The notes under the pieces are model-generated. The model saw nothing but the letters and a program-made list of their open reading frames with translations. It was not told the DNA's origin and did not search any database. Made by a program: the position numbers and the translations under genes. Shown in pieces: positions 10,091 to 57,315 of a DNA stretch of 64,000 nt (position 1 is its first letter; every line of letters starts with the position of its first letter). The stretch lies in the NCBI RefSeq assembly GCF_022419185.1, contig NZ_JAJOZK010000008.1, forward strand, positions 1-64,000, given 5' to 3'. The DNA is from Thermomonas flagellata. GTDB lineage: Bacteria; Pseudomonadota; Gammaproteobacteria; Xanthomonadales; Xanthomonadaceae.

Positions 10091-11815
10091 TCAGGCCGCT
10101 GGCGCCGCTGGTGTGATCAGGCGTGCTGCCAGTGCCAACGCATGGTCGAAGTTGTCGGCGTAATGGATGCCCGTGGCATGCTCGCCCAAGCCCATGCGCG
10201 CAATCACCTGCTTGGGTTGGGCCTGCAGGCCGGAAATCACCAGCGTGATGCGTCGTCGATGGCAGCGCTCGGCCAGGGCCTGCAGGGCGTGCACGCCGCT
10301 GGCGTCAATCAGAGGCACCAGCCGCATGCGCAGGATCAGCACCCGCGGGGCTACCACGAAGGTATCCAGCAGGCTGTCGATCCGGCTGCTGGCGCCGAAG
10401 AAGAGTGGGCCGGTGATCTGATAGGCCTCGACGCCCTGCGGAAGGCGCGTACGCTGGTCGAGTTCCTCCGGTGGCGCGGCCATCACCGGGCGCAGGTCGT
10501 CGTCGGTGGCGCGGATCCCCGCATCCACGGTCACGCTCTCGGACATGCGGTACATGAAGAGCAGCGAGGCCAGCACCACCCCCGTCTCGATCGCGACCGT
10601 GAGGTCCACCAGCACAGTCAGGCTGAAAGTGGCCAGCAGCACCAGGCGATCGCCGTACGGCGCCGACAGGGTGGCACGAATGGCATCGATCTCGCTCATG
10701 TTCCAGGCCACCATCAGTAACACCGCGGCCAGCGCGGCCAGCGGGATGGCACCCAGCAGCGGTGCCAGCAGCAGCATGAACGCGAGCAGGAAAAGCGCAT
10801 GCAGCATGCCGGCGAACGGAGTGCGTCCACCGGAACGGATATTGGTGGCGGTGCGTGCGATCGCGCCCGTCGCTGGCAGGCCGCCGAACAGCGCGGATCC
10901 GACGTTGGCCACGCCCTGCGCCACCAATTCGGCATTGGAGCGGTGGCGACCACCGGTCATGCCGTCCGCCACTACGGCCGATAGCAGGGATTCGACGCCG
11001 GCCAGGAACGCGATCGTGAAGGCGCTGGGAAGCAGTTCTAAGGTGCGTTCGAACGGGATGTGCGGAATCGTGAAGGTCGGCAACCCAGCGGACACCGGCC
11101 CGAAGCGGGTGCCAATGGTCTCGACCGGCAGCCCGAGGAGCGACGTGGCGACGGTGCAGGCCAGCAGCGCCAGCAGGAAACCCGGCCAGCGCGGCCGCCA
11201 GTGGCGCAGCGCCACGATGACCGTCAGGCCGGCCGCGGTCAGCGCTAGCGTCGGCCACTGCGTTTGCCCCAAGTGCGCCAGATAGGCCTGCCAGCGCGGC
11301 AGAAATTCGCCGGGCAGGTGGGCGATGTGCAGGCCGAGCGCGTCCGGGATCTGGCTGGAGACGATGCTGACCGCGATGCCCGCGGTGAACCCGGTCACTA
11401 CTGGCTGCGGGATGTAGCGCATCAGCATGCCCAGCCGCAGCAGGCCGGCGGCGATCAGCATCAGCCCGGCCAGCAGGGTACACAGGATCAGGCCGCCGTA
11501 ACCGTGGGTTTGGATGATCCCGAAGACGACCGGGATGAAGGCGGCGGTGGGGCCCCCGATCTGCACCCGCGATCCGCTCAACAGCGAGATCAGGAAGCCG
11601 GCCACGACGGCGGTTTGCAGGCCTTTTTCCGGCGTCGTGCCGGAGGCGATGGCCAGCGCCATCGCGAGCGGCAGGGCCACGATCGCCACCGTCAGTCCAG
11701 CGATGGCATCGGCGCGCAGCTGCGCCAGGCTGTAGCCCTCGCGCAACACGGTCAGCAGCTTCGGTTCGTACAGTTGGCGCCAGGACCGGAGGGAGGGCGA
11801 GGGCGGGACGCTCAT
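10091..11815 (-). CDS. SulP (SLC26) family anion transporter with STAS domain
   Basis: This 574-aa inner-membrane protein has the SLC26/SulP fold. The N-terminal block DAIAGLTVAIVALPLAMALA, about 10-12 membrane spans (residues 30-430) and a cytoplasmic STAS domain (about 440-555, with VLILRMRLVPLIDASGVHAL) are all visible. Family substrates include sulfate, bicarbonate and dicarboxylates, and the sequence does not decide between them. Its ATG overlaps the end of the XRE gene by 4 bp, so both are on one transcript. A 14-bp GC palindrome at 10043-10056 lies just past the stop. Confidence 0.93.
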   Translation of the reverse strand: MSVPPSPSLRSWRQLYEPKLLTVLREGYSLAQLRADAIAGLTVAIVALPLAMALAIASGTTPEKGLQTAVVAGFLISLLSGSRVQIGGPTAAFIPVVFGIIQTHGYGGLILCTLLAGLMLIAAGLLRLGMLMRYIPQPVVTGFTAGIAVSIVSSQIPDALGLHIAHLPGEFLPRWQAYLAHLGQTQWPTLALTAAGLTVIVALRHWRPRWPGFLLALLACTVATSLLGLPVETIGTRFGPVSAGLPTFTIPHIPFERTLELLPSAFTIAFLAGVESLLSAVVADGMTGGRHRSNAELVAQGVANVGSALFGGLPATGAIARTATNIRSGGRTPFAGMLHALFLLAFMLLLAPLLGAIPLAALAAVLLMVAWNMSEIDAIRATLSAPYGDRLVLLATFSLTVLVDLTVAIETGVVLASLLFMYRMSESVTVDAGIRATDDDLRPVMAAPPEELDQRTRLPQGVEAYQITGPLFFGASSRIDSLLDTFVVAPRVLILRMRLVPLIDASGVHALQALAERCHRRRITLVISGLQAQPKQVIARMGLGEHATGIHYADNFDHALALAARLITPAAPAA

Positions 11816-43584: not shown

Positions 43585-45156
43585 ATGCAGACGCCCCCGG
43601 AAATCTACGCGCGCGCGGTGGACGCGCTCAACCGCGGCCAGTGGGCGCAGGCCCATGCCCTCGCCAGCGGCCTGGTGGCCCGGGTCCCCGGCCATGGCGG
43701 GGTGCACTTCGTGGCCGGAGTGGCAGCCCTGCAGTTGGAGCGCGTCCCGGAGGGGCTGCGCCACCTGCAGCTGGCGGTCCACCACAGCCCGGGGCGGCCG
43801 GACTATGCCGCGCAGTTCGCGCGGGCACTGGCGATGGCGCGCCTGACCAGGGAGTCGCTGGTCGCGGCGGATGCCGCGCTGGCGATGGGCCCGCAGGACC
43901 CGACCACGCTGGACACCCTCGGCGTGGTGTACAGCCAGGCGAACGCACACGCGCGCGCGGTCGGGCTGTTCGAGCGGGTGGCCGCGCACTGGCCGCGGCA
44001 CGCGCCGGCACGCTTCAACTTCGCCACCTCGCTGACCTTCAGCGGCGCGCTGGATCGCGCCGAGCAGGAATACGAGGCCTGCATCGCCGCCGACCCCACG
44101 TTCTGGAAGGCGCACCTGGCGCTGGCCCAGCTGCGCAAGGCGACCCCGGAGCACCACCATCTCGCGCGCCTGCGCGCGCTGCTGCGGCAGGCAGCGAGTG
44201 CGGAGGCGCGGCTGTACCTCAACTTGGCGCTGGCCAAGGAGTTGGAGGACCTGGGCGAGTATGCACAGGCCTTCCGGCACCTGGTCGCGGGCAAGGCGGC
44301 GGGAGGCGAGGGACGCCGCTACACCAGCGACCGCGATGCCGCGCTGTTCCAGACCCTGCGCGCGCTGTTCCCCGATCCGGTCGATGCCACGGCCGGGGAT
44401 CCCGATCCGGCGCCGATCTTCGTGGTCGGCATGCCGCGCAGCGGCACCACGCTGGTCGACCGCATCCTGTCCTGCCATCCGCAGGTGCATTCGGCCGGGG
44501 AACTGCAGAACTTTGGGGTGGTGCTCAAGCGGCTGTCGGGCAGTGCCACCCCGGAGCTTCTGGATCAGGACACCCTGCGCCGTGGCGCGGCGGTCGATCC
44601 GCGTGCGCTCGGGGAGGCCTACGTCGCCAGCACCCGGCCGGGCACCGCGGTGCGGCCGCGGTTCGTGGACAAGCTGCCGCACAACTTCCTCTACCTCGGC
44701 CACATCGCGCGCGCGCTGCCGAACGCGCGCATCGTCTGCCTGCGGCGCAACCCGATGGACACCTGCCTCGGCAACTTCCGCCAGCTGTTCGCGCAGACCA
44801 GCCCGTACTACGACTACTCGTTCGACCTGCTCGACACCGGGCGCTACTACCTGCAATTCGATGCGCTGATGCGGCACTGGCAGCGGGTGCTGCCCGGGCG
44901 CGTACTGGAGCTGCACTACGAGGCGCTGGTGGACGACCAGGAGGGCCAGACCCGGCGCCTGCTGGCGCACTGCGGACTGGAGTGGGATCCGGCCTGCCTG
45001 CGCTTCACCGACAACGCAGCGCCGGTCGCCACCGCCAGTGCGGTGCAGGTGCGCGAGCCGCTGCATCGGCGGGCGCTGGCGCGTTGGAAGCGCTACGGCC
45101 CGGCGCTGGATGGCCTGCGTGCCCTGCTGGAGGCGGCAGGCGTGCAGGTGGAGTGA
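43585..45156 (+). CDS. TPR-repeat protein with C-terminal sulfotransferase domain
   Basis: This 523-aa cytosolic protein has TPR-like helical repeats in about residues 5-240 (for example DPTTLDTLGVVYSQANAHAR). A PAPS-dependent sulfotransferase domain occupies 277-520. The 5'-phosphosulfate loop is PRSGTTL at 284-290. RFVDKLPHNFLYLG and CLRRNPMDTCLGNFRQLF hold the probable 3'-phosphate site. This architecture resembles tyrosylprotein sulfotransferases and is common beside TonB receptors in Xanthomonadaceae. The acceptor is unknown. It is divergent from the S9 peptidase and convergent with receptor 2. Confidence 0.9.
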   Translation: MQTPPEIYARAVDALNRGQWAQAHALASGLVARVPGHGGVHFVAGVAALQLERVPEGLRHLQLAVHHSPGRPDYAAQFARALAMARLTRESLVAADAALAMGPQDPTTLDTLGVVYSQANAHARAVGLFERVAAHWPRHAPARFNFATSLTFSGALDRAEQEYEACIAADPTFWKAHLALAQLRKATPEHHHLARLRALLRQAASAEARLYLNLALAKELEDLGEYAQAFRHLVAGKAAGGEGRRYTSDRDAALFQTLRALFPDPVDATAGDPDPAPIFVVGMPRSGTTLVDRILSCHPQVHSAGELQNFGVVLKRLSGSATPELLDQDTLRRGAAVDPRALGEAYVASTRPGTAVRPRFVDKLPHNFLYLGHIARALPNARIVCLRRNPMDTCLGNFRQLFAQTSPYYDYSFDLLDTGRYYLQFDALMRHWQRVLPGRVLELHYEALVDDQEGQTRRLLAHCGLEWDPACLRFTDNAAPVATASAVQVREPLHRRALARWKRYGPALDGLRALLEAAGVQVE

Positions 45157-45349: not shown

Positions 45350-48211
45350 TTACTTGGCCCGGCCGAAGTTCCACTTCGCTTCCAGGTAGTAGGCGCGGCC
45401 CAGCACGTCGAAGTTGCTGCTGTTGTAAGGCGCCCCGCTGGTGCCCGGATACGAGCGCACGTCCATGTTCGGCATCCGGTTGCTGAGGTTGGTCACCATC
45501 AGCGACAGCTTCAGGTCCTCGGTGACGTCGAAGTTGAGGCTGCCGTTGTAGGTGGTGTACGAGCCGATCTTGCCCGCCCCGGCATAGGCATAGCCGGCCG
45601 GAGTGAGGGTGGCGCGGTAGTTCGGGGTCGGACCGATGTAGTTGGCGTACAGCGTGGTGGTCCAGCGCCCGATGTTCCAGCCCACGGCCGCGTTGGCCTT
45701 GTACTTCGGGTCCGTGCTCCAGTACGGGTCGTTCAGCAGATCCACCACCGGGTCGGTCGGGTACTGCTGGAAGTCGTGCTTGAGGTTGCGCGTCCAGTTG
45801 CCGGACAGGTTCAGCTCGCCCCACGCGCCCAGGCCCTGGCGGTAGTTCAGCCCGAGCGACACCGCGTTCAGCGTCTCGCTGGCGATGTTGACCTTCTTCA
45901 CGTCGATCGACTGCACGTTCCCGCTCGGCCCGCGGTGGATCTGGCTCAGCGCGGCCTGGCAGGTGCCGGAGTTGATGTCCAGCGCGCCCAGGCGGCAGTT
46001 GGCCTCGTCCCGCATCAGCTGGTCGACGTTCTGCAGCGCCACCTCGTCCTTGATGTTCCAGTGGTAGTAGTCGGCGCTGACCGAGAACTTGGCGGTCGGC
46101 GCCCACACCATGCCGTAGCTCCACACCGTGGCGTTGATCGGCTTCAGGTCCGGGTTGCCGGACTGCTGGCCGAAGTACTGCAGGCTGGAATAGCGCTGCG
46201 GGCACTGGTCCACGTTGCCGGCGTCGTAGCCGAGCAGGGCGCAGTTGTAGTAGTCGGTGGTGAAGCTATAGAAGCCGCTCACGCCCTGGAACTGGTCGGC
46301 CAGGGTCGGGGCCTTGAACGCGGTGCCGTACTTGCCGCGGAACAGCAGCGACTCGACCGGGCGGAACTCCAGGCCCAGACTGTAGGTCGGCTTGTCGATG
46401 GTGCGGCCGGCCGCGCGGTAGGCATCGTAGCGGGCGGAGGTGGTCACCGTCAGCGACTGCAGCAGCGGCAGGCGCAGCTCGCCGGTGAGCGCATAGCGCG
46501 AGCGCTGGCCGCCGCCGCTGACCGCGGTGGTGCCCCAGATCTGGCCGTTCAGCAGCAGCGGATCGGGGTCGTAGCGCCAGCCCTCGGTGCCGGCCTCGAG
46601 CGCGATCGCCGCGCCGGCGTCGCCGCCCTTGAGCGGGAACAGCGCGCTGTTGGTGAACTGCGCGCGCAGCAGGTTGTCGTAAGTGCTGCTACGCGAGACC
46701 GTGCGGCCCATGAAGCTGTAGAAGTCCGACGGCGACATCAGGGTGTAGAACGCCGCGTAGTTCGGGGTGAACACCGGGTAGGCGCCGTAGTAGGGGTCCA
46801 GCCCCAGCTGCGGGCCCAGCACCTTCTGCTGGAAGTAGTCGTTGATCGGATCGGCCAGGCGCGCCAGGCTGATCTCGTCCAGCTTGTAGTGGGTGCGGCT
46901 GACGCTGACGTCGTAGTCCCAGTTCGAGCCCTCGCTCAGGGTGCCGTTCACGCCGACCGTGATGGCGTACGAGGTGCTCTTGTTCTCCTCCATGGTGTTC
47001 TTCCAGCCGCCCATGTCCTCGGGCGTGAACGCGCGCTGCAGGTTCAGGAAGTCATCCAGGTTCGGGTCGTAGTAGTAGCCCCACTTCACGCTGGTGCCCC
47101 ACCAGGTGTAGCTGGAGCCGATGTGGTACTTCACCTTCTCGTGGTTGAGCAGCACGTCGGCATAGGCCTGGGCGAGGTCGTTCAGCTCGTACGTGGTGTG
47201 CGTATAGAGCTGGATGCCTTCCTTCTGGTTCTTCAGCGTGCGGTAGCCCGGGGTGTAGAACGAGCCGCAGTAGTGGGTGTCGCCGAAGCCCGGGCGGGTC
47301 TGCTTGGCCTCGGTGCCGCCGAAGCCGGCCTGCACGTTGGCGCAGTTGGCAGGATCCAGGAAGTTGTAGCTGGTGAACGGGCTGTACACCAGCCAGTCGC
47401 GGCTGGCGATCGGCGCTGCGCCGTTGTAGGCGTTCTGGTTGAACTGCTTGGTCAGCTCGCGCTGGTAGGCCCACACCGGATCGCTCTTTTCGGCCTGGAT
47501 GCCGACCAGGGTGTTCCAGCGGTTGTCCTTGCTGCTGAAGCTGTCGGCGTAGCTGAGGCGGCCGCTGCGGCCGCCGCCGTCGGCGTAGCCGCCCAGGCGC
47601 GCGGCGAGGACGGCACCGTCCACGTTCTTCTTGAGGATGATGTTGACCACGCCGGCGATCGCGTCGGAGCCGTACAGCGAGGACTGCCCGCCGGGCAGGA
47701 TCTCGATGCGGTCGACCAGGTCCACCGGGATGCCGCTGATGTTGTTGAACACGTCGGTGCCGTTGTACAGCGCCGGGTAGTTCGCCATCGGGCGGCCGTT
47801 GATCAGGTACTTCACGTAGCTCGGCGACAGCCCGAACAGGCTGAGGGTCTCCGCGCCCTGGGTGAACGAGGCCGAGCTCTGGTTGTTCTGCACGCCGCCG
47901 GTGGCGAACGAGCTCTTCTGGAGCACTTCGGCGACCGAATTGAAGCCGCGTGCCTGGATGTCCTCGGCGCTGATCACGGTCAGCGGGGTGGCGGTCTCGA
48001 TCTGGGTCTGCGGGATCAGCGAGCCGGTCACCACGACCTTGTCCAGGTCCTTGGGCTTGCTGTCGGCCTTGTTGGCGGCCTGATCCTTGCTGGTCTGGCC
48101 GGCCTGCGCCGCCTGATCCTGCGCCAGCGCGGCGGCCGGCAGCAGCAGCGCGGCGGCCAGCGCGAGGGTCAGCGGATTGCGGTGCAGTCGGCGGGCAATC
48201 GTGTGGGGCAT
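45350..48211 (-). CDS. TonB-dependent outer-membrane receptor 2
   Basis: This 953-aa receptor has a signal peptide (LTLALAAALLLPAAALAQD), a Gln/Ala/Lys-rich linker and a TonB box DLDKVVVTGS. The plug (about 60-180) has PLTVISAEDIQARGFNSVAE and GQSSLYGSDAIAGVVNIILK, and the beta-barrel ends in AYYLEAKWNFGRAK. Its plug resembles receptor 1 only in general family features, so they are not a recent duplication. SD AGAAGGA precedes ATG 48211; a small CTTGT/ACAAG hairpin (48229-48244) lies in the leader. The ligand is unknown. Confidence 0.93.
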   Translation of the reverse strand: MPHTIARRLHRNPLTLALAAALLLPAAALAQDQAAQAGQTSKDQAANKADSKPKDLDKVVVTGSLIPQTQIETATPLTVISAEDIQARGFNSVAEVLQKSSFATGGVQNNQSSASFTQGAETLSLFGLSPSYVKYLINGRPMANYPALYNGTDVFNNISGIPVDLVDRIEILPGGQSSLYGSDAIAGVVNIILKKNVDGAVLAARLGGYADGGGRSGRLSYADSFSSKDNRWNTLVGIQAEKSDPVWAYQRELTKQFNQNAYNGAAPIASRDWLVYSPFTSYNFLDPANCANVQAGFGGTEAKQTRPGFGDTHYCGSFYTPGYRTLKNQKEGIQLYTHTTYELNDLAQAYADVLLNHEKVKYHIGSSYTWWGTSVKWGYYYDPNLDDFLNLQRAFTPEDMGGWKNTMEENKSTSYAITVGVNGTLSEGSNWDYDVSVSRTHYKLDEISLARLADPINDYFQQKVLGPQLGLDPYYGAYPVFTPNYAAFYTLMSPSDFYSFMGRTVSRSSTYDNLLRAQFTNSALFPLKGGDAGAAIALEAGTEGWRYDPDPLLLNGQIWGTTAVSGGGQRSRYALTGELRLPLLQSLTVTTSARYDAYRAAGRTIDKPTYSLGLEFRPVESLLFRGKYGTAFKAPTLADQFQGVSGFYSFTTDYYNCALLGYDAGNVDQCPQRYSSLQYFGQQSGNPDLKPINATVWSYGMVWAPTAKFSVSADYYHWNIKDEVALQNVDQLMRDEANCRLGALDINSGTCQAALSQIHRGPSGNVQSIDVKKVNIASETLNAVSLGLNYRQGLGAWGELNLSGNWTRNLKHDFQQYPTDPVVDLLNDPYWSTDPKYKANAAVGWNIGRWTTTLYANYIGPTPNYRATLTPAGYAYAGAGKIGSYTTYNGSLNFDVTEDLKLSLMVTNLSNRMPNMDVRSYPGTSGAPYNSSNFDVLGRAYYLEAKWNFGRAK

Positions 48212-48617: not shown

Positions 48618-49586
48618 TCAGTCGGCGTCGTCGCGCGCATGTGCGATCGCCGGCGCGCCCAGCAGCGCCTCGTCCTGCGCGCGCAGGAACGGCTCGGCCT
48701 CGCTCAGCATGAAGTAGCGGAACGCCTCCGCCGCCGGCGAGAGCACCTTGGACAGCCGGTGTACCAGGTTCCAGGTGCGCACCACCGGGGTGCCCTCGAC
48801 GTCGAGGATCCGCAGCAGGCCGGTGCGCAGCTCCAGCCCGAGGGTATGCAGCGAGAGGAAGCTGATGCCCATGCCGGCGATCACCGCCTGCTTGATGATC
48901 TCGTTGCTGGGCATCTCCATCGCCAGGTGCGGCTCGATCCGGCGCGCCTCGAAGTAGTCCTCCATCACCTTGCGGGTACCGGAGCCCGGCTCGCGCGCCA
49001 GGCACGGCCAGTGCGCCAGCGCGCGCGGGGTGACCGGCTCGCCGCTGGTCGCCAGCGGGTGCCCGGCGCCGGCGATGAACACCAGCGGGTGCGCGGCGAA
49101 GGGCTCGGAGCGGGTGGCCAGCTCGCGCGGCGGGCGGCCCATGATCGCCAGGTCGATCTCGTTGGCAGCCAGCATCGCCACCAGCTGCTCGCGGTTGCCG
49201 CCGATGCGCATGCGCAGCTCGACGCCAGGATGCGCTTCGCGGAAGCGGGCCAGCAGTTGCGGCACGAAGTACTTGGCGGTGCCGACCAGGCCGATGCTGA
49301 GCAGGCCGCTGTCGGCGCCGCGGAAGCGTGCCATCGCATCCTCGGCGTCCTTGACCGTGGCCAGGATCCTGCGGACGTGGAAGGTGAGGTACTCGCCGGC
49401 GGTGGTCAGCGAGACCTGGCGTCCGCGCCGGACCAGCAGCTGCAGCCCGAGCAGGGTCTCCAACTCCTTGATCTGCATGGTGACCGCCGGCGGGGTCAGG
49501 TGCAGGGCCTCGGCCGCGCGCACGAAGCTGAGGTGGCGGGCGACCTCGGCGAAGGTACGCAGCTGGCGCAGGGTCAGGCCCTTCAT
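48618..49586 (-). CDS. cbbR: LysR-type regulator, CbbR-like
   Basis: This 322-aa LysR protein has an N-terminal winged HTH ([35 protein letters not shown]) and a periplasmic-binding-like effector domain (about 90-300). It resembles CbbR, which activates Calvin-cycle operons in response to metabolites such as NADPH or phosphorylated sugars. It is divergent from fbp-prk-tkt-gph-cbbY-fba, the classic cbbR position. TATGAT (49600-49605, minus strand) is a likely -10, and it lies between two LysR-type sites, which suggests autoregulation. Confidence 0.85.
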
Positions 49587-49600
49587 TCAGAAGCCCTGAA
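49586..49600. promoter_or_regulatory. LysR-type site 1 (TTCA-N7-TGAA)
   Basis: TTCAGAAGCCCTGAA is an inverted repeat with the T-N11-A core and fits the published CbbR pattern TNA-N7/8-TNA. Its first base is the first base of the cbbR ATG. Its centre (49593) would be near -65 for the predicted fbp start, the usual place of the LysR recognition site. Confidence 0.65.
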
Positions 49601-49607
49601 TCATAGG

Positions 49608-49622
49608 TTCATACGAATTGAA
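49608..49622. promoter_or_regulatory. LysR-type site 2 (TTCA-N7-TGAA)
   Basis: TTCATACGAATTGAA repeats the same 15-bp pattern. Its centre is 22 bp from that of site 1, about two helical turns, and abuts the predicted -35 of fbp. It would be the activation site. Confidence 0.65.
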
Positions 49623-49651
49623 TTTACCTTATTCGAGGCCCGCAGTAGGGT
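49623..49651 (+). promoter_or_regulatory. Predicted promoter of the cbb operon
   Basis: TTTACC (49623-49628), a 17-nt spacer and TAGGGT (49646-49651) lie directly after LysR site 2. The -10 is weak (3/6), as expected for an activator-dependent promoter. The leader to fbp would be about 120 nt. Confidence 0.4.
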
Positions 49652-49778
49652 CGGCGATAGGCCCGGCATGACGCCCCTCCCGGGGCGGCGGCCGATGCGG
49701 CAGCCGGGGCAGGGGTCATCGGGGATCGCAGGGCGCGGGCGGGCCGTGCACCGGTTCCCCATCGCAGCGAGGCCAGCC

Positions 49779-50855
49779 ATGCCGGTGTCCACCCGCCACA
49801 CCCTCACTCAATACCTGATCGACCAGCGCCGCCGTTTCCCCTCGGCCAGCGGCGATCTCAACGGGCTGATCCTGGACGTGGCGATCGCCTGCAAGACGAT
49901 CGCCCGCGAGGTCGCCTCCGGCGCGCTGGCGGAACTGCCGGCGGCCGGCGAGGTGAACGTGCAGGGCGAGGCGCAGAAGCCGCTGGACGTGGCCAGCAAC
50001 GAGGTGTTTCTGCGCCAGACCGAGTGGTCGGGGCATCTGGCGGGGATGGCGTCGGAGGAGATGGACGCGCCCTACCAGATCCCGGCCGGCTATCCGCGCG
50101 GCAAGTACCTGCTGGTGTTCGATCCGCTGGACGGGTCCTCCAACATCGATGTGAACGTCAGCGTCGGCAGCATCTTCTCGATCCTGCGCGCGCCCGACGA
50201 CGTGGTCGCCAGCGGGCGGGACGTGACCGAGGCCGATTTCCTGCAGCCCGGGCATACGCAGGTGGCGGCCGGCTATGCCATCTACGGGCCGAGCACGATG
50301 TTGGTGCTGACGGTCGGCAACGGCGTGGCCGGCTTCACCCTGGATCCGAACATCGGCGAGTTCCGGCTCACCCACCCGGACATGCGCGTCCGCCCGGATA
50401 CCCAGGAGTTCGCGATCAACAGCTCCAACAGCCGCTTCTGGGAGCCACCGGTCAAGCGCTACGTGGACGAATGCCTGGCCGGCCGCAGCGGGCCGCGCGG
50501 CAAGGACTTCAACATGCGCTGGATCGCCTCGATGGTGGCCGAAGCGCACCGCATCCTGATGCGCGGGGGGGTGTTCCTGTACCCGCGCGACAACAAGGAT
50601 CCATCCAAGCCGGGGCGCCTGCGCCTGCTCTACGAGGCCAACCCGATCGCGTTCCTGATGGAGCAGGCCGGCGGCCTGTGCAGCACCGGCCGTCAGCCGA
50701 TGCTGGGCATCCAGCCGCGGGAGCTGCACCAGCGCATCGGGGTGGTGTTCGGCTCGCGCAACGAGGTCGAGCGCATCCAGCGCTACCACACCGATCCCGC
50801 CTCGCGCGAACTGCCCGAGCCGCTGTTCGCCGAGCGCGGCCTGTTCCGCGATTGA
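49779..50855 (+). CDS. cbbF: Fructose-1,6-bisphosphatase class I (CbbF)
   Basis: This 358-aa enzyme dephosphorylates fructose-1,6-bisphosphate in gluconeogenesis and the Calvin cycle. The active-site block is DPLDGSSN at 115-122, with [18 protein letters not shown] around it, and GGVFLYPRD later. ATG 49779 ([14 protein letters not shown]) matches the family N-terminus; an earlier in-frame ATG at about 49669 would add Arg/Pro-rich residues. It is the first gene of a six-gene cbb-type operon; prk follows 24 bp later. Confidence 0.95.
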
Positions 50856-50879
50856 GCCTGCGACCGCCCGGAGCCTGAC

Positions 50880-51764
50880 ATGTCCGAACGCCATCCCATC
50901 ATCGCGATCACCGGCTCCTCCGGGGCCGGCACCACCTCGGTCACCCGTACCTTCCAGGCCATTTTCCGGCGCGAGTCGATCAAGGCGGCGATCATCGAGG
51001 GCGACAGCTTCCACCGCTACGACCGCGCCGAGATGAAGGAGAAGATGGCCGAGGCCGAACGCAACGGCAACCGCCACTTCAGCCACTTCGGGCCGGAGAA
51101 CAACCTGTTCGCGGAGCTGGAGGCGCTGTTCCGCACCTACGCGGAGACCGGGACCGGGCGCTGCCGCAAGTACCTGCACGACCACGAAGAGGCCAAGCCC
51201 TACGGCCAGCCGCCCGGCACCTTCACTCCGTGGGAGGACCTGCCGGCGGACACCGACCTGTTGTTCTACGAGGGCCTGCACGGCGCGGTGGTGACCCCGG
51301 AGGTCAACGTGGCGCGGCACGCCGACCTGCTGATCGGGGTGGTGCCGGTGATCAACCTGGAATGGATCCAGAAGCTGTGGCGCGACAAGAAGCAGCGCGG
51401 CTACAGCACCGAGGCGGTGACCGACACCATCCTGCGGCGGATGCCCGACTACGTGAACTACATCTGCCCGCAGTTCACCCAGACCCACGTCAACTTCCAG
51501 CGGGTGCCGTGCGTGGACACCAGCAACCCGTTCATCGCGCGCGACATCCCCACCGCAGACGAGAGCATCTGCGTGATCCGCTTCCGCAACCCGAAGGGCA
51601 TCGACTTCCCCTACCTGCTCAACATGATCCACGACTCGTGGATGTCGCGCGCCAACACCATCGTGGTGCCCGGCGGCAAGATGGAGCTGGCGATGCAGCT
51701 GATCTTCACCCCGTTCATCGCGCGCATGATGGAGCGCCGCCGGCGCGCGCTGGGGGCGCTGTGA
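50880..51764 (+). CDS. cbbP: Phosphoribulokinase
   Basis: PRK phosphorylates ribulose-5-phosphate to ribulose-1,5-bisphosphate, the RuBisCO substrate, and is diagnostic for the Calvin cycle. The 294-aa protein is of the proteobacterial type. The P-loop is GSSGAGTTS at 12-20. [26 protein letters not shown] and [20 protein letters not shown] match the family. GTGA overlap couples it to the transketolase. The octameric proteobacterial PRKs are usually activated by NADH rather than by thioredoxin. Confidence 0.96.
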
Positions 51765-53824
51765 GCGCGCCGGCGACGCAGGCCGCGCCCGCCGCCGCGG
51801 AGCCGGGCCCGCGCGCACTGGCCGATGCGCTGCGCATGCTGGCGGTGGACGCGGTCGAGCGCGCGCGTTCCGGGCATCCGGGCGCGCCGATGGGCATGGC
51901 CGACATCGCCTGCGTGCTGTGGCGGCAGTTCCTGCGCCACGACCCGGCCGACCCGCGCTGGCCCGACCGCGACCGCTTCGTGCTCTCCAACGGCCACGGC
52001 TCGATGCTGCTGTACGCGCTGCTGCACCTGACCGGCTACGACCTGCCGATGGCGGAGCTGCAGGCGTTCCGGCAGCTGCACAGCCGCACTCCCGGCCACC
52101 CGGAATACGGCGTCACCCCGGGGGTGGAGACCACCACCGGCCCGCTCGGGCAGGGCCTGGCGAACGCGGTCGGGATGGCGCTGGCGGAGAAGCTGCTCGC
52201 GGCCGAGTTCAACCGCGACGGCCACGCCATCGTCGACCACCACACCTATGTGTTCGCCGGCGACGGCTGCCTGATGGAGGGCATCAGCCACGAGGTGGCC
52301 TCGCTCGCCGGCACCCTGCGCCTGTCCAAGCTGGTGGTGTTCTACGACGACAACGGCATCTCGATCGACGGCCACGTCGCCGACTGGTTCGCGGACGACA
52401 CCCCGGCCCGGTTCGAAGCCCAGGGCTGGCATGTCCTGCGCGGCGTGGACGGGCACGATGCGGCCGCGGTCGAGGCCGCGCTGCGCGCGGCGCTGGCGCA
52501 GTCGCGCGCGCCGGACGGCAAGCCCAGCCTGATCTGCTGCCGCACCGTGATCGGCCAGGGCGCGCCGAACAAGGCCGGCAGCCACGACGTGCACGGCGCG
52601 CCGCTGGGCGCGCAGGAGGTCGCCGCCACGCGCGCCGCGCTCGGCTGGGACGCCCCGCCCTTCGTGGTGCCCGAGGCGATCGCGCGCGCCTGGGACGCGC
52701 GCGCGCGCGGCGCCGCGCAGTCGGCCGCGTGGCGGGCGGCATTCGCACGCTACCGCGCGGCGCATCCGGCGCTGGCCGCCGAGTTCGAGCGGCGCATGGC
52801 CGGCGACCTGCCGCCCGACTGGGCGGCGCAGGCGGAGGCGCGCATCCTGGCGATGGCGGCCGGGGCCGGTGCGGTCGCCACCCGCCGCGCCAGCCAACTC
52901 GCGCTGGACGCGCTGGCGCCGCTGCTGCCGGAGTTGTTCGGCGGCAGCGCCGACCTGACCGCCTCCAACCTGACCAACTTCAAAGGCTGCGTGAGCGCCG
53001 GACGCGACCGGCCCGGCAACCACCTGTCCTACGGCGTGCGCGAGTTCGGGATGGCGGCGATGATGAACGGCATCGCCCTGCACGGCGGCTTGCTGCCCTA
53101 CGGCGGCACCTTCCTGACCTTTTCCGACTACAGCCGCAACGCCCTGCGCATGGCCGCGCTGATGCGCCTGCGGGTGGTCCACGTGTTCACCCACGACAGC
53201 ATCGGCCTCGGCGAGGACGGCCCGACCCACCAGAGCGTGGAGCACGTGCCCAGCCTGCGCCTGATCCCGCAGTTCGACGTCTGGCGCCCGGCCGATGCGC
53301 TGGAGACCGGGGTCGCGTGGATGCACGCGATCGAACGCCGGGACGGGCCGAGCGCGCTGTGCCTGTCGCGCCAGGCCTTGCCGGCCCTGCCGGCGGACCC
53401 GGCGCGGCTGGCGGCGGCGCGCCGCGGCGGCTACGTGCTGGCGGACGCCGAGGATGCGCGCGCGGTGCTGCTGGCGACCGGCTCCGAGGTCGGGCTGGCG
53501 CTGCAGGCGCGCGACCTGCTCGCGGCCGACGGCATCCCGGTGCGGGTGGTGTCGATGCCCTCGACCAGCGTATTCGACCGCCAGGACCGCGCCTGGCGCG
53601 AGGCGGTGCTGCCGCGCCGGCTGCCGGTGGTGGCGATCGAGGCCGCGCACCCGGACCTGTGGCACAAGTACGTTGGCCGCGACGGCTGCGTAATCGGCCT
53701 CGACCGCTTCGGCGAGTCGGCGCCCGCGGCCGAGCTGTTCCGGCATTTCGGGTTCACCCCGGAGCGGGTGCGCGATGCGGTGCGCGCGCTGCTCGGGCTG
53801 GCGGAAGCGGAGGCGGAGGCATGA
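51761..53824 (+). CDS. cbbT: Transketolase
   Basis: This thiamine-diphosphate enzyme moves two-carbon units in the Calvin and pentose-phosphate pathways. The 687-aa protein has [20 protein letters not shown], the ThDP motif [18 protein letters not shown] and [15 protein letters not shown]. The pyrimidine domain has [20 protein letters not shown] and [21 protein letters not shown] 51761 overlaps the prk stop; no ATG fits better. A housekeeping tkt may exist elsewhere. Confidence 0.95.
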
Positions 53825-54522
53825 ACTGCGGCTTCGATCTCATCCTGTTCGACCTCGACGGCACCCTGGTGGACAGCGCGCCGGAGATCGCCGACGCGGT
53901 CAACGACACCCTGCAGGAGCTGGGCCTGCCGGCGCAGCCGCCGGCGCAGGTGCAGGCCTGGATCGGGCATGGCACTGGGGTGCTGCTGCTGCGCGCGCTG
54001 GCGGCCGGCTGGGGCCTGCCGCTGGAGGCGGTGCGCGCGGACCCGCGCCTGCCGGCGGTCGCGGCGCGTTTCCAGCACCACTACGCCGCCCGCTGCGGCA
54101 GCCGCAGCCGGGTCTATCCCGGCGCGCGCGAGCTGCTGCAGGCGCTGCGCGCGGACGGCGTGCGGCTGGCGGTGCTGACCAACAAGGAAGGGCGTTACAC
54201 CCATGCGCTGCTGGCCGCGCACGGGCTGCGCCCGCTGCTGGACCTGGTGGTCAGCGGCGACACCCTGCCGGTGCGCAAGCCGGACCCGGCGGTGGCGCGG
54301 CACTGCCTGGACTGGTTCAGCGTCAGCCCGTACCGCGCGCTGCTGGTCGGCGATTCGGCGATCGACGCGGCCACCGCGCGCAACGCCGGGATCGCCTGCT
54401 GGCTGCTGCCGCACGGCTACAACGGCGGGGTGCCGGTCGCGGACGCGCGGCCGGACGCGGTGGTCGCGGACTTTCCCGCACTGCAGGCGCGCCTGCTGCC
54501 GGAGGTGGCGCTGCACGCATGA
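53821..54522 (+). CDS. cbbZ: Phosphoglycolate phosphatase (CbbZ/Gph)
   Basis: This HAD phosphatase hydrolyses 2-phosphoglycolate, the product of RuBisCO oxygenation. The 233-aa protein has Asp11 and Asp13 in [16 protein letters not shown], the motif II region VLTNKEG, Lys in [11 protein letters not shown] and the motif IV Asp in [17 protein letters not shown]. It overlaps tkt by 4 bp (ATGA) and the CbbY gene by 4 bp. Its presence in this operon suggests a working RuBisCO elsewhere in the genome. Confidence 0.92.
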
Positions 54523-55325
54523 GCCGGCTGCGGGCGCTGCTGTGGGATGTCGATGGCACCCTCGCGGAGACCGAGGCGGAGGGTCACCGGGTCGCGTTCA
54601 ACGCCGCCTTCGCCGCGCATGGGCTGCCCTGGCATTGGGACGACGCGCGCTACGGCCGGCTGCTCGCGGTCACCGGCGGGCGCGAGCGCCTGCTGCACGA
54701 CATGCAGGCGCGCGCGGACGCGCCGGCCGACCCGGCGGCGCGCGCGGCGCTGGCGGCGCAGCTGCATGCGACCAAGAACCGCCTATACGCCGAGCGCGTG
54801 CGCGCGCCCGGCATCCCGCTGCGGCCCGGGGTCGCGGCGCTGATCGCCGCCGCTGCCGCGCGCGGCTGGCGCCAGGCGATCGCGACCACCACCAGCCGCG
54901 CCAATCTGGATACGCTGCTGCGCGCGCATTTCGGTGCCGACTGGGCGCGGCGCTTCGACGCAGTGGTGTGCGGCGAGGACGTGGCGCGCAAGAAGCCCGA
55001 CCCGGAGGTGTACCGGATCGCGCTGGCGCGCCTGCGGTTGCCCGCGGACGCGGCGCTGGCGATCGAGGACGCCCCGCCGGGCGTCGCCGCCGCGCGCGCG
55101 GCCGGGATCGCGGTGGTCGTCACCCGCAGCCGCTATTTCGCCGACGCGCCGGTGCCCGGTGCCTGCGCGGTCGGTCCCGGCCTGCACACCCGCGCCGGCT
55201 GGACACCGCCAGCCGCCGGCGGCCGCGAGGGCGCGGTCGACCTGGACGATCTTGCGGCCTGGCATGCCGCCGCCTCCCTTCCCGAACCTGCCACCGCCAC
55301 CCACGGAGCCCCGCCATGGCCCTGA
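54519..55325 (+). CDS. cbbY: HAD hydrolase of the CbbY family
   Basis: CbbY proteins dephosphorylate xylulose-1,5-bisphosphate, an inhibitor that RuBisCO makes by misprotonation. The 268-aa protein starts [20 protein letters not shown] (Asp10, Asp12), the CbbY signature, and carries [22 protein letters not shown] and [16 protein letters not shown]. It overlaps both neighbours: cbbZ by 4 bp and fba by 10 bp. This is more typical of cbbLS-linked operons than of sugar metabolism. Confidence 0.93.
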
Positions 55326-56356
55326 TCTCCCTGCGTCAGCTGCTGGACCACGCCGCCGAGCACGACTACGGCGTACCCGCCTTCAACATCAACAACATGG
55401 AGCAGATCCACGCGATCATGCAGGCCGCCGCCGAGGTGGACGCGCCGGTGATCCTGCAGGCCTCCGCCGGCGCCCGCAAATACGCCGGCGAGCCGTTCCT
55501 GCGGCACATGGTGCTGGCCGCGGTCGAGGCGTACCCGGACATCCCGATCGTGCTGCACCAGGACCACGGCACCTCGCCGGCGGTGTGCCAGGCCTCGATC
55601 CGTTCCGGCTTCACCAGCGTGATGATGGACGGCTCGCTGCTGGAGGACGGCAAGACCCCGTCCAGCTATGCCTACAACATCGACGTCACCCGCCGCGCGG
55701 TGGAGATGGCGCACGCGGTCGGGGTCTCGGTCGAGGGCGAACTGGGTTGCCTGGGCTCGCTCGAGACCGGCCAGGCCGGCGAGGAGGACGGCATCGGCGC
55801 GGAGGGCACGCTCAGCCACGACATGCTGCTGACCGATCCGGACGAGGCGCGCGACTTCGTCGCCCAGACCGGGGTGGACGCGCTGGCGATCGCGATCGGC
55901 ACCAGCCACGGCGCCTACAAGTTCACCCGCCAGCCGACCGGCGACATCCTCGCCATCGACCGCATCGCCGCGATCCATGCCGCGATCCCGAACACCCACC
56001 TGGTGATGCACGGCAGTTCCAGCGTGCCGCAGGAATGGCTGGCGGTGATCCGCCAGTACGGCGGCGACATCAAGGAGACCTACGGGGTGCCGGTCGAGGA
56101 GATCGTGCGCGGCATCCAGAGCGGCGTGCGCAAGGTCAACATCGACACCGACATCCGCCTGGCGATGACCGGGGCGATGCGCAAGGTGTTCGCCGAGCAG
56201 CCGTCGGAGTTCGACCCGCGCAAGGCGCTGGCGGCCGCCACCCGCGCCGCGCAGGGCATCTGCCGGGCGCGCTTCGAGGCGTTCGGCTGCGCCGGCCAGG
56301 CCAGCCGGATCAAGCCGGTGCCGCTGGAGAAGATGGCCGCCCGCTACCGCGCCTGA
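55316..56356 (+). CDS. cbbA: Fructose-bisphosphate aldolase class II (CbbA type)
   Basis: This zinc aldolase joins DHAP with glyceraldehyde-3-P (and erythrose-4-P in the Calvin cycle). The 346-aa protein has [35 protein letters not shown], the zinc-site block VLHQDHGTS (80-87), [12 protein letters not shown] and [11 protein letters not shown] with [16 protein letters not shown]. The class IIB, CbbA-like form is typical of autotrophs. It is the last gene of the cbb operon; apbC starts 110 bp later. A separate gluconeogenic aldolase could exist elsewhere. Confidence 0.95.
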
Positions 56357-56466: not shown

Positions 56467-57315
56467 GTGCCCCGCCTGCCAGCCCACGCCGTGCAGGGCG
56501 AGCTCAAGCCGCTCGCCAACGTCCGCAACCTGATCGCCGTCGGCTCCGGCAAGGGCGGGGTGGGCAAGTCCACCACCGCGGTCAACCTCGCGCTGGCGCT
56601 GGCCGCCGAGGGGCTGGCGGTGGGCGTGCTGGATGCCGATATCTACGGCCCCAGCGTGCCGACCATGCTCGGCCTGGCCGCGCGCCCGGAGAGCCCGGAC
56701 GGCAAGGCGATCCTGCCGCTCACCGCGCACGGGATCGAGGCGATGTCGATCGGGCTGCTGGTGGACGCCGACACCCCGACCATCTGGCGCGGGCCGATGG
56801 CGACCTCGGCCCTGACCCAGCTGCTGCACGACACCCGCTGGGGCGACCTCGACCTGCTGCTGGTGGACCTGCCGCCCGGCACCGGCGACATCCAGCTGAC
56901 CCTGGCGCAGAAGATCCCGGTCGCCGGCGCGCTGGTGGTGACCACCCCGCAGGACGTGGCCACCCTGGACGCCGGCAAGGCGCTGGCGATGTTCCAGCGC
57001 CTCGGGATCGCGGTGCTCGGCCTGGTCGAGAACATGGCGGTGCACGTTTGCAGCCGCTGCGGGCACGCCGAGCACGTGTTCGGAGAGGGCGGCGCGGCGC
57101 GCCTGGGCGAGCGCTACCAGGTGCCGGTGCTGGGCGCGCTGCCGCTGGAGCCGGCGATCCGCGTGCAGGCCGACGCCGGCACCCCGATCGTGGCCGCGCG
57201 CCCGCAGGACCCGGCGGCGCAGGCCTACCGCGCCATCGCGCGCGCCCTGCTGGAGCGGCTGGCGCAGCGGCCGAAGGTGCGCGGCGGGATCATGGCCGCG
57301 CTGCTGGGCGACTGA
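56467..57315 (+). CDS. apbC: Mrp/NBP35-type iron-sulfur carrier ATPase
   Basis: ApbC/Mrp is a P-loop ATPase that binds and delivers iron-sulfur clusters. The 282-aa protein has the deviant Walker A GKGGVGKST at 28-36, VLDADIYGPSVPTMLG, LLVDLPPGTGD and the cluster-binding pair Cys195 and Cys198 (CSRC). It lacks the N-terminal MIP18/DUF59 domain found in E. coli Mrp (about 370 aa). GTG 56467 is chosen as the first start that leads straight into the domain. dcd follows after 72 bp. Confidence 0.9.
   Translation: MPRLPAHAVQGELKPLANVRNLIAVGSGKGGVGKSTTAVNLALALAAEGLAVGVLDADIYGPSVPTMLGLAARPESPDGKAILPLTAHGIEAMSIGLLVDADTPTIWRGPMATSALTQLLHDTRWGDLDLLLVDLPPGTGDIQLTLAQKIPVAGALVVTTPQDVATLDAGKALAMFQRLGIAVLGLVENMAVHVCSRCGHAEHVFGEGGAARLGERYQVPVLGALPLEPAIRVQADAGTPIVAARPQDPAAQAYRAIARALLERLAQRPKVRGGIMAALLGD

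Follow-up and report, generated by a model that had tools for sequence, protein, structure and literature searches.

Close relatives that differ in their RuBisCO have been described in Nitrosospira, whose ecotypes carry either a form IA or a form IC enzyme according to the available part of PMC9239080. For the genus Thermomonas, the available text of PMC7692377 lists it as one of the sulfur oxidisers of a hot spring, whose community as a whole is reported there to have Calvin-cycle and carboxysome genes, while that of PMC8215349 gives Thermomonas as 7.8% of a pyrite-fed autotrophic enrichment. In the accessible portions of the literature searched, we found no Thermomonas genome for which a RuBisCO or carboxysome locus is reported. 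Here we describe a Calvin-cycle (cbb) operon in Thermomonas flagellata, located within a stretch of 64,000 nucleotides (hereafter the window; C4:1-64000) of a genome of 2.52 Mb that is assembled in 15 contigs and estimated as 99.86% complete with a contamination of 0.02. We read it as a genuine carbon-fixation operon without RuBisCO genes at their usual place. Our favoured account, to which we assign a probability of roughly 0.8, is that an ancestral red-type operon lost cbbLSX, that a carboxysomal RuBisCO took over and that the resulting autotrophy would be driven by a Sox system.

A regeneration operon divergent from cbbR

The operon and its regulator gene comprise the following features, given with the score and cut-off of the best family model where one applies.

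48618-49586, minus strand: cbbR, LysR-type regulator with HTH_1 and LysR_substrate domains, divergent from cbbF
49779-50855, plus strand: cbbF, class 1 fructose-1,6-bisphosphatase (NF006779, 517 bits; cut-off 349)
50880-51764, plus strand: cbbP, phosphoribulokinase (NF011997, 524 bits; cut-off 362), with the P-loop GSSGAGTTS
51761-53824, plus strand: cbbT, transketolase (TIGR00232, 907 bits; cut-off 682)
53821-54522, plus strand: cbbZ, phosphoglycolate phosphatase (TIGR01449, 182.7 bits, narrowly passing the cut-off of 180)
54519-55325, plus strand: cbbY-like HAD hydrolase (PF00702/PF13419)
55316-56356, plus strand: cbbA, class II fructose-bisphosphate aldolase, FruBisAldo_II_B (TIGR01521, 619 bits; cut-off 496)

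A first-pass annotation of the sequence had described this divergent arrangement with four overlaps of 4-10 bp and one gap of 24 bp, and we found it so: 24 bp separate cbbF from cbbP, the P/T, T/Z and Z/Y junctions overlap by 4 bp each and the Y/A junction by 10 bp. As judged from the encoded protein families, the window encodes the regeneration half of the Calvin cycle (fructose-1,6-bisphosphatase, phosphoribulokinase, transketolase, aldolase and phosphoglycolate clean-up) under its own CbbR. For cbbY, no equivalog model scored above its cut-off in the NCBIfam profile scan. The possibility raised earlier that the phosphoribulokinase (PRK) is a uridine kinase-like protein was dispelled, since cbbP reached 28 bits with the best uridine kinase model versus 524 bits for phosphoribulokinase; its closest PDB match is the phosphoribulokinase 1a7j. 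A phylogenetic tree set the window cbbR among cbb-linked CbbRs, as sister to the CbbR of a same-genus genome, G014 (locus L026; Shimodaira-Hasegawa-like approximate likelihood ratio test support, SH-aLRT, 99), and within a 19-row clade (95); red-type cbbL is also present at 17 of the 18 other loci of that clade. The gene order, which had been regarded as unusual, proved to have counterparts: cbbZ is directly followed by cbbY in L029, L036, L044, L064 and L070, and the whole series F-P-T-Z-Y-A recurs in L036 and L070.

Relatives were sought in 41 genomes, 25 of them of the genus (20 of the 25 at least 90% complete). A PRK match was obtained in only two of the genus genomes, that of the window and G014, whose PRK is 92% identical and the nearest among the 41; the other 23 had none. 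Of these 25, the same two alone had a RuBisCO match spanning the entire profile.

RuBisCO, carboxysome and Sox genes outside the window

A search with PF00016 yielded a single RuBisCO match in the genome, a full-length cbbL lying outside the window on contig C8 (C8:26337-27758) and covering the whole profile; no second RuBisCO was found. The first-pass annotation had noted the absence of RuBisCO from the window and predicted the enzyme elsewhere, and it had proposed a search for carboxysome and cbbQ/O genes, all of which are on C8. The encoded protein carries the motif GLDFTKDDE, its top PDB match is 1svd, which we take to be the form IA enzyme of Halothiobacillus, and it is 92-94% identical to CbbL proteins from carboxysome (cso) operons. 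Downstream of cbbL come cbbS, csoS2, csoSCA, csoS4A, csoS4B, three csoS1 genes and a pterin dehydratase-like gene, followed by parA, cbbQ, a cbbO with a VWA domain, a gene for a BMC-domain protein (csoS1D-like) and a trypsin-like gene. On the upstream side, dabA is accompanied by an NADH-dehydrogenase-L-like partner; a P-II-like gene is also there, and cbbL is faced by a second LysR/CbbR gene. CsoSCA, CsoS4A, CsoS4B, one of three CsoS1 scanned, DabA, CsoS2_M and CbbQ_C scored above their cut-offs, and the island holds the full set of csoS2, csoSCA, csoS1 and csoS4A/B by which an alpha-carboxysome locus is recognised. The carboxylation half of the cycle would therefore be a separate alpha-carboxysome operon with a form IA-like RuBisCO, its own CbbR and a predicted DAB-type carbon pump. 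No close CbbX was found in the genome, the best match being 31% identical over a partial length.

CsoS2 is scarce in the order, being present in two of 397 sampled genomes; PRK scored above its cut-off in 37 of 397. The second CsoS2-bearing genome (G245:C76, locus L111) belongs to another family and is 75% complete. In a sample of 369 genomes of the class, searched for a possible donor of the island, the closest cbbL to the C8 copy was 94% identical. The island follows an rpsF-dnaB-alr-OmpA-like block (named by eye) that is syntenic in the relatives fetched. About 1.7 kb to its right, the gene at C8:41299 is present in 10 of the 25 genus genomes and is separated from alr by ~185-280 kb in G022, G001 and G009, and by more in G002; the island thus sits at a rearrangement point. 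No tRNA genes were found in the stretches around the island (L018, L019). Weaker RuBisCO-family matches were seen in 5 of the 24 genus relatives (G001, G011, G012, G014 on its contig C283, and G022), and two of the frames, L011 and L008 (G001, G011), look by eye like RuBisCO-like proteins of the form IV type.

The search for sulfur-oxidation genes that had been suggested uncovered a sox cluster, whose 465-kb contig also carries atp- and glm-like genes (named by eye); SoxB was detected in the window genome only, one of the 25 of the genus. The neighbouring genes were assigned as soxX, A, Z, Y, D and C, giving the set soxXAYZB with CD; SoxB, A, Z, Y and C scored above their NCBIfam cut-offs, SoxX was named by position only and SoxD by position, with no NCBIfam match. 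Hydrogen, the donor likewise put forward earlier, was rejected: NiFe hydrogenase (PF00374) was found in none of the 25 genus genomes. Given the sox genes and the absence of this hydrogenase, thiosulfate-driven autotrophy is our best guess, with thiosulfate oxidation by the Sox system as the most likely energy source. If the enzymes are active as predicted, the organism, whose relatives are mostly non-autotrophic, probably uses CO2 and sulfur compounds for growth. The window also encodes a SulP-family permease with a STAS domain (10091-11815), which may carry sulfate or bicarbonate, in a genome that has sox and Calvin-cycle genes.

A shared insertion site and a conserved block upstream of cbbF

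G014, whose cbb genes are identical by tblastn to those of the metagenome-assembled genome UWPOB_THERMO1 (JAFLEC010000036.1; g__Thermomonas as listed in the available part of PMC8103865), has genes in the order TPR, TonB, cbbR, red cbbL-S-X-F-P-T-Z up to a contig end. On a second contig cbbA, 91% identical to that of the window, adjoins mrp, and the two contigs would presumably join. The corresponding flanks in the window are as follows.

45350-48211, minus strand: TonB-dependent receptor, left flank, adjoining mrp in three cbb-less relatives too
56491-57315, plus strand: mrp/apbC-like P-loop ATPase, right flank, named by eye; next to cbbA in G014

Since the TonB/TPR and mrp flanks agree, the operons of the window and G014 occupy one shared site. 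Seven relatives that lack cbb genes were fetched with their upstream sequence: L116, L117 and L118 have the TonB receptor adjacent to mrp, L112 has only a 31% TonB match there, and in L113, L114 and L115 other genes precede mrp; the sequence of L120 starts near mrp. A TPR protein with a sulfotransferase domain (PF13469), encoded at 43585-45156 next to the TonB receptor, is common to G014 and one cbb-less relative, L116. The window and G014 are 86% identical in cbbF, 92% in cbbP, 85% in cbbT, 80% in cbbZ, 77% in cbbR and 91% in cbbA; these values resemble those of mrp (81-82%) and alr (82%), which is what descent from a shared ancestor would predict.

Between cbbR and cbbF lie 192 bp, which alignment with G014 divides as follows.

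49585-49633, plus strand: putative CbbR operator/promoter, ATTCAG-N5-CTGAAT followed by TTCATACGAATTGAATTTACCTTATT
49634-49778, plus strand: leader, at the place where the relative has cbbL-S-X

The window thus lacks the cbbL-S-X genes that stand between cbbR and cbbF in a red-type (form IC) operon, and tblastn of 49587-49778 gave no convincing remnants of L, S or X (short matches only, best E 0.027). The alignment revealed a block, ATTCAG-N5-CTGAAT plus GAATTGAATTTACCTTATT, that is common to the cbbR-cbbF gap of the window and the cbbR-cbbL gap of G014. ATTCAG-N5-CTGAAT occurs at one site in the window versus 0.00 expected in shuffles (up to 2 mismatches); with the same tolerance it was not found in L018, which spans the gap before the carboxysome operon. 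The core GAATTTAC[CT]T was present in 34 of 56 cbbR gaps versus 0.02 expected (mononucleotide shuffles of all 56): 25 of 37 gaps between cbbR and red cbbL, 6 of 15 between cbbR and cbbY, both gaps before another RuBisCO-like match, and one of the two cbbR-cbbF gaps, L036 lacking it.

Direction of change, alternatives and known counterparts

Trees of CbbF and CbbP (F+P), and of these with CbbT (F+P+T), were built from 27 rows chosen from 78, namely a 23-row clade minus one duplicate plus five outer rows. The window and G014 were sisters in both (100/94 and 100/100, respectively). The state scored by hand, in 26 rows with L070 omitted, was a red L or X preceding cbbF; L028, L033, L037 and L057 were scored by cbbX, and L051 was scored although ~5 kb intervene. 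Both trees require two state changes, in the window and in L036, a count that carries no direction. Because the other 24 scored rows share the red L/X state, loss is the preferred direction, and we favour a loss in the window lineage over a gain in G014 without regarding it as proven. We propose that a red (form IC) cbbR-cbbLSX-cbbFPTZYA operon was acquired before the window species and G014 split, that cbbLSX would then have been lost in the window lineage, and that the carboxysomal form IA module elsewhere may have replaced the lost red RuBisCO. With cbbLSX lost, the operator that once faced cbbL would now drive cbbF directly, presumably under CbbR control.

Several observations weigh against this account. 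The window cbbR scores 288.8 bits with its top NCBIfam model, CbbR, versus a cut-off of 450, so its name rests on the tree and the setting. Eight gaps preceding cbbY or another RuBisCO-like match hold the operator core, which is therefore an operator candidate of the CbbR clade and not of red RuBisCO alone, and L036 is without it. On C8, CsoS2 passed the Pfam cut-off and missed those of NCBIfam, ParA fell narrowly under its cut-off (177.9 of 180), cbbS matched no NCBIfam model and was named by position and kinship, and no gene right of the island was syntenic with the relatives fetched. G014 is ~80% complete and in 300 contigs. As regards the trees, we chose the five outer rows ourselves and all have red cbbL, outer-clade loci without it (Tepidimonas, Limnohabitans and others) lying outside the 27 rows; the operons are mosaic, the tree changing when cbbT is added; and L070, with an epimerase-like frame (by eye) rather than cbbX before cbbF, is a possible close row that is placed at 86/90 with cbbT and is unresolved without it. 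Finally, the concatenated cbbL/S/X of G014 is sister to that of Variovorax soli (100/99), a species distant from G014 in the F+P tree. As these neighbours differ, cbbLS may have been exchanged or inserted later.

This last discrepancy would suit a common ancestor of both Thermomonas lineages that had cbbR-cbbF without RuBisCO, G014 having gained red cbbLSX. We consider that history unlikely, though worth keeping in mind: cbbX of G014, taken alone, has largely the same neighbours as its F+P (88/92), the scored rows other than the window and L036 all have red genes upstream of cbbF, and an insertion would need to have landed exactly between the operator block and cbbF. Our own reading for G014 is an exchange of cbbLS within an otherwise shared operon. 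L036 has the same genes in the same order, next to cso genes, so that both operons might have arrived together from an L036-like donor (divergent cso and cbbR-cbbFPTZYA) and separated later. We deem this improbable, since a joint clade of the window and L036 was rejected (approximately unbiased test, p-AU 4.5e-5 for F+P and 7.7e-7 for F+P+T), the window shares its insertion site and CbbR kinship with G014, and its genome's cbbL is 86% identical to that of L036 and up to 94% to others.

The earlier suggestion that the operon is reused without RuBisCO, PRK serving a heterotrophic role, would agree with the lack of RuBisCO beside it; we give it hardly any credence, given that the genome has a complete RuBisCO and a carboxysome operon. 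Assembly contamination as the source of the carboxysome or sox contigs would explain why such a RuBisCO and SoxB are absent from the other 24 genus genomes searched. It is most improbable given the low contamination estimate (0.02), the syntenic rpsF-dnaB-alr-OmpA-like genes before the island, the atp- and glm-like genes on the sox contig, and G+C contents of 72.6% for the island, 72.7% for the window and 68.9% for sox.

Loss of cbbLSX in the window lineage, which we prefer over these alternatives, can be set among other loci, of which the best 80 of at least 581 confirmed were surveyed. Red cbbL was found upstream of cbbF within the reach of the script in 39 and cbbR with no red cbbL there in 19, some of these with another RuBisCO-like gene nearby; 20 had neither within reach, many on early-ending contigs (L051, among these, has red cbbL farther up), and two lacked a full cbbF. 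By these counts, operons with cbbR not followed by red cbbL are not rare. In L036 (239-15700), a Burkholderiales contig, a carboxysome operon is divergent from cbbR-cbbFPTZYA without red cbbLSX, an independent case of the window-like layout. In PRKs of another family an in-frame TAA had been flagged, which in the one copy read was a normal gene end, and a PADLOC scan of two neighbours gave no match.

We lean towards a more general view of modular RuBisCO exchange, in which red cbbLSX is deleted while CbbR and its operator are kept and drive cbbF, and a carboxysomal form IA module with its own CbbR and CbbQ/O replaces it from a remote locus, so that one cycle would have two CbbRs; the window and L036 may represent at least two independent occurrences. 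The parts are of known kinds, and the novelty lies in their combination in Thermomonas and in the syntenic snapshot that the locus gives of RuBisCO exchange. To a genus in which 23 of the 25 searched genomes lack a PRK match it adds what is likely a carboxysome-bearing autotroph driven by thiosulfate, and a close pair of genomes with red versus green RuBisCO and the same downstream genes makes the rewiring of regulation upon RuBisCO exchange testable.

As far as the available part of PMC9239080 goes, Nitrosospira resembles the window and G014 in that close relatives have different forms of RuBisCO, a cso operon being present in one of them, and differs in that no loss in place under a kept operator is described there. 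The Tepidimonas-type cbbR-cbbY-cbbF operons (L075, L086, L087, L089) share with the window the operator core, the lack of cbbL between cbbR and cbbF, and a CbbR of the same larger red-linked clade; they belong to another lineage and have cbbY before cbbF, and their lack of cbbL refers to the fetched stretches only, the rest of those genomes not having been searched. The betaproteobacterial red-type operon (L029, L027; cbbR / cbbL-S-X-(Y)-F-P-T-Z-A) has the same divergent cbbR, downstream gene kinds and operator core, whereas the window is without cbbL, cbbS and cbbX and its operator block faces cbbF. The C8 order, cbbL-S-csoS2-csoSCA-csoS4A-4B-csoS1x3-acRAF-parA-cbbQ-cbbO-csoS1D-trypsin-like, is that of L193 and nearly that of L183 (one csoS1 hit) and L182 (no csoS1D hit), all from genomes of the class, and corresponds to the alpha-carboxysome operon of sulfur oxidisers, which we take to be of the Halothiobacillus type; unlike in those operons, it is found here in a Thermomonas genome and on a contig separate from the other cbb genes.

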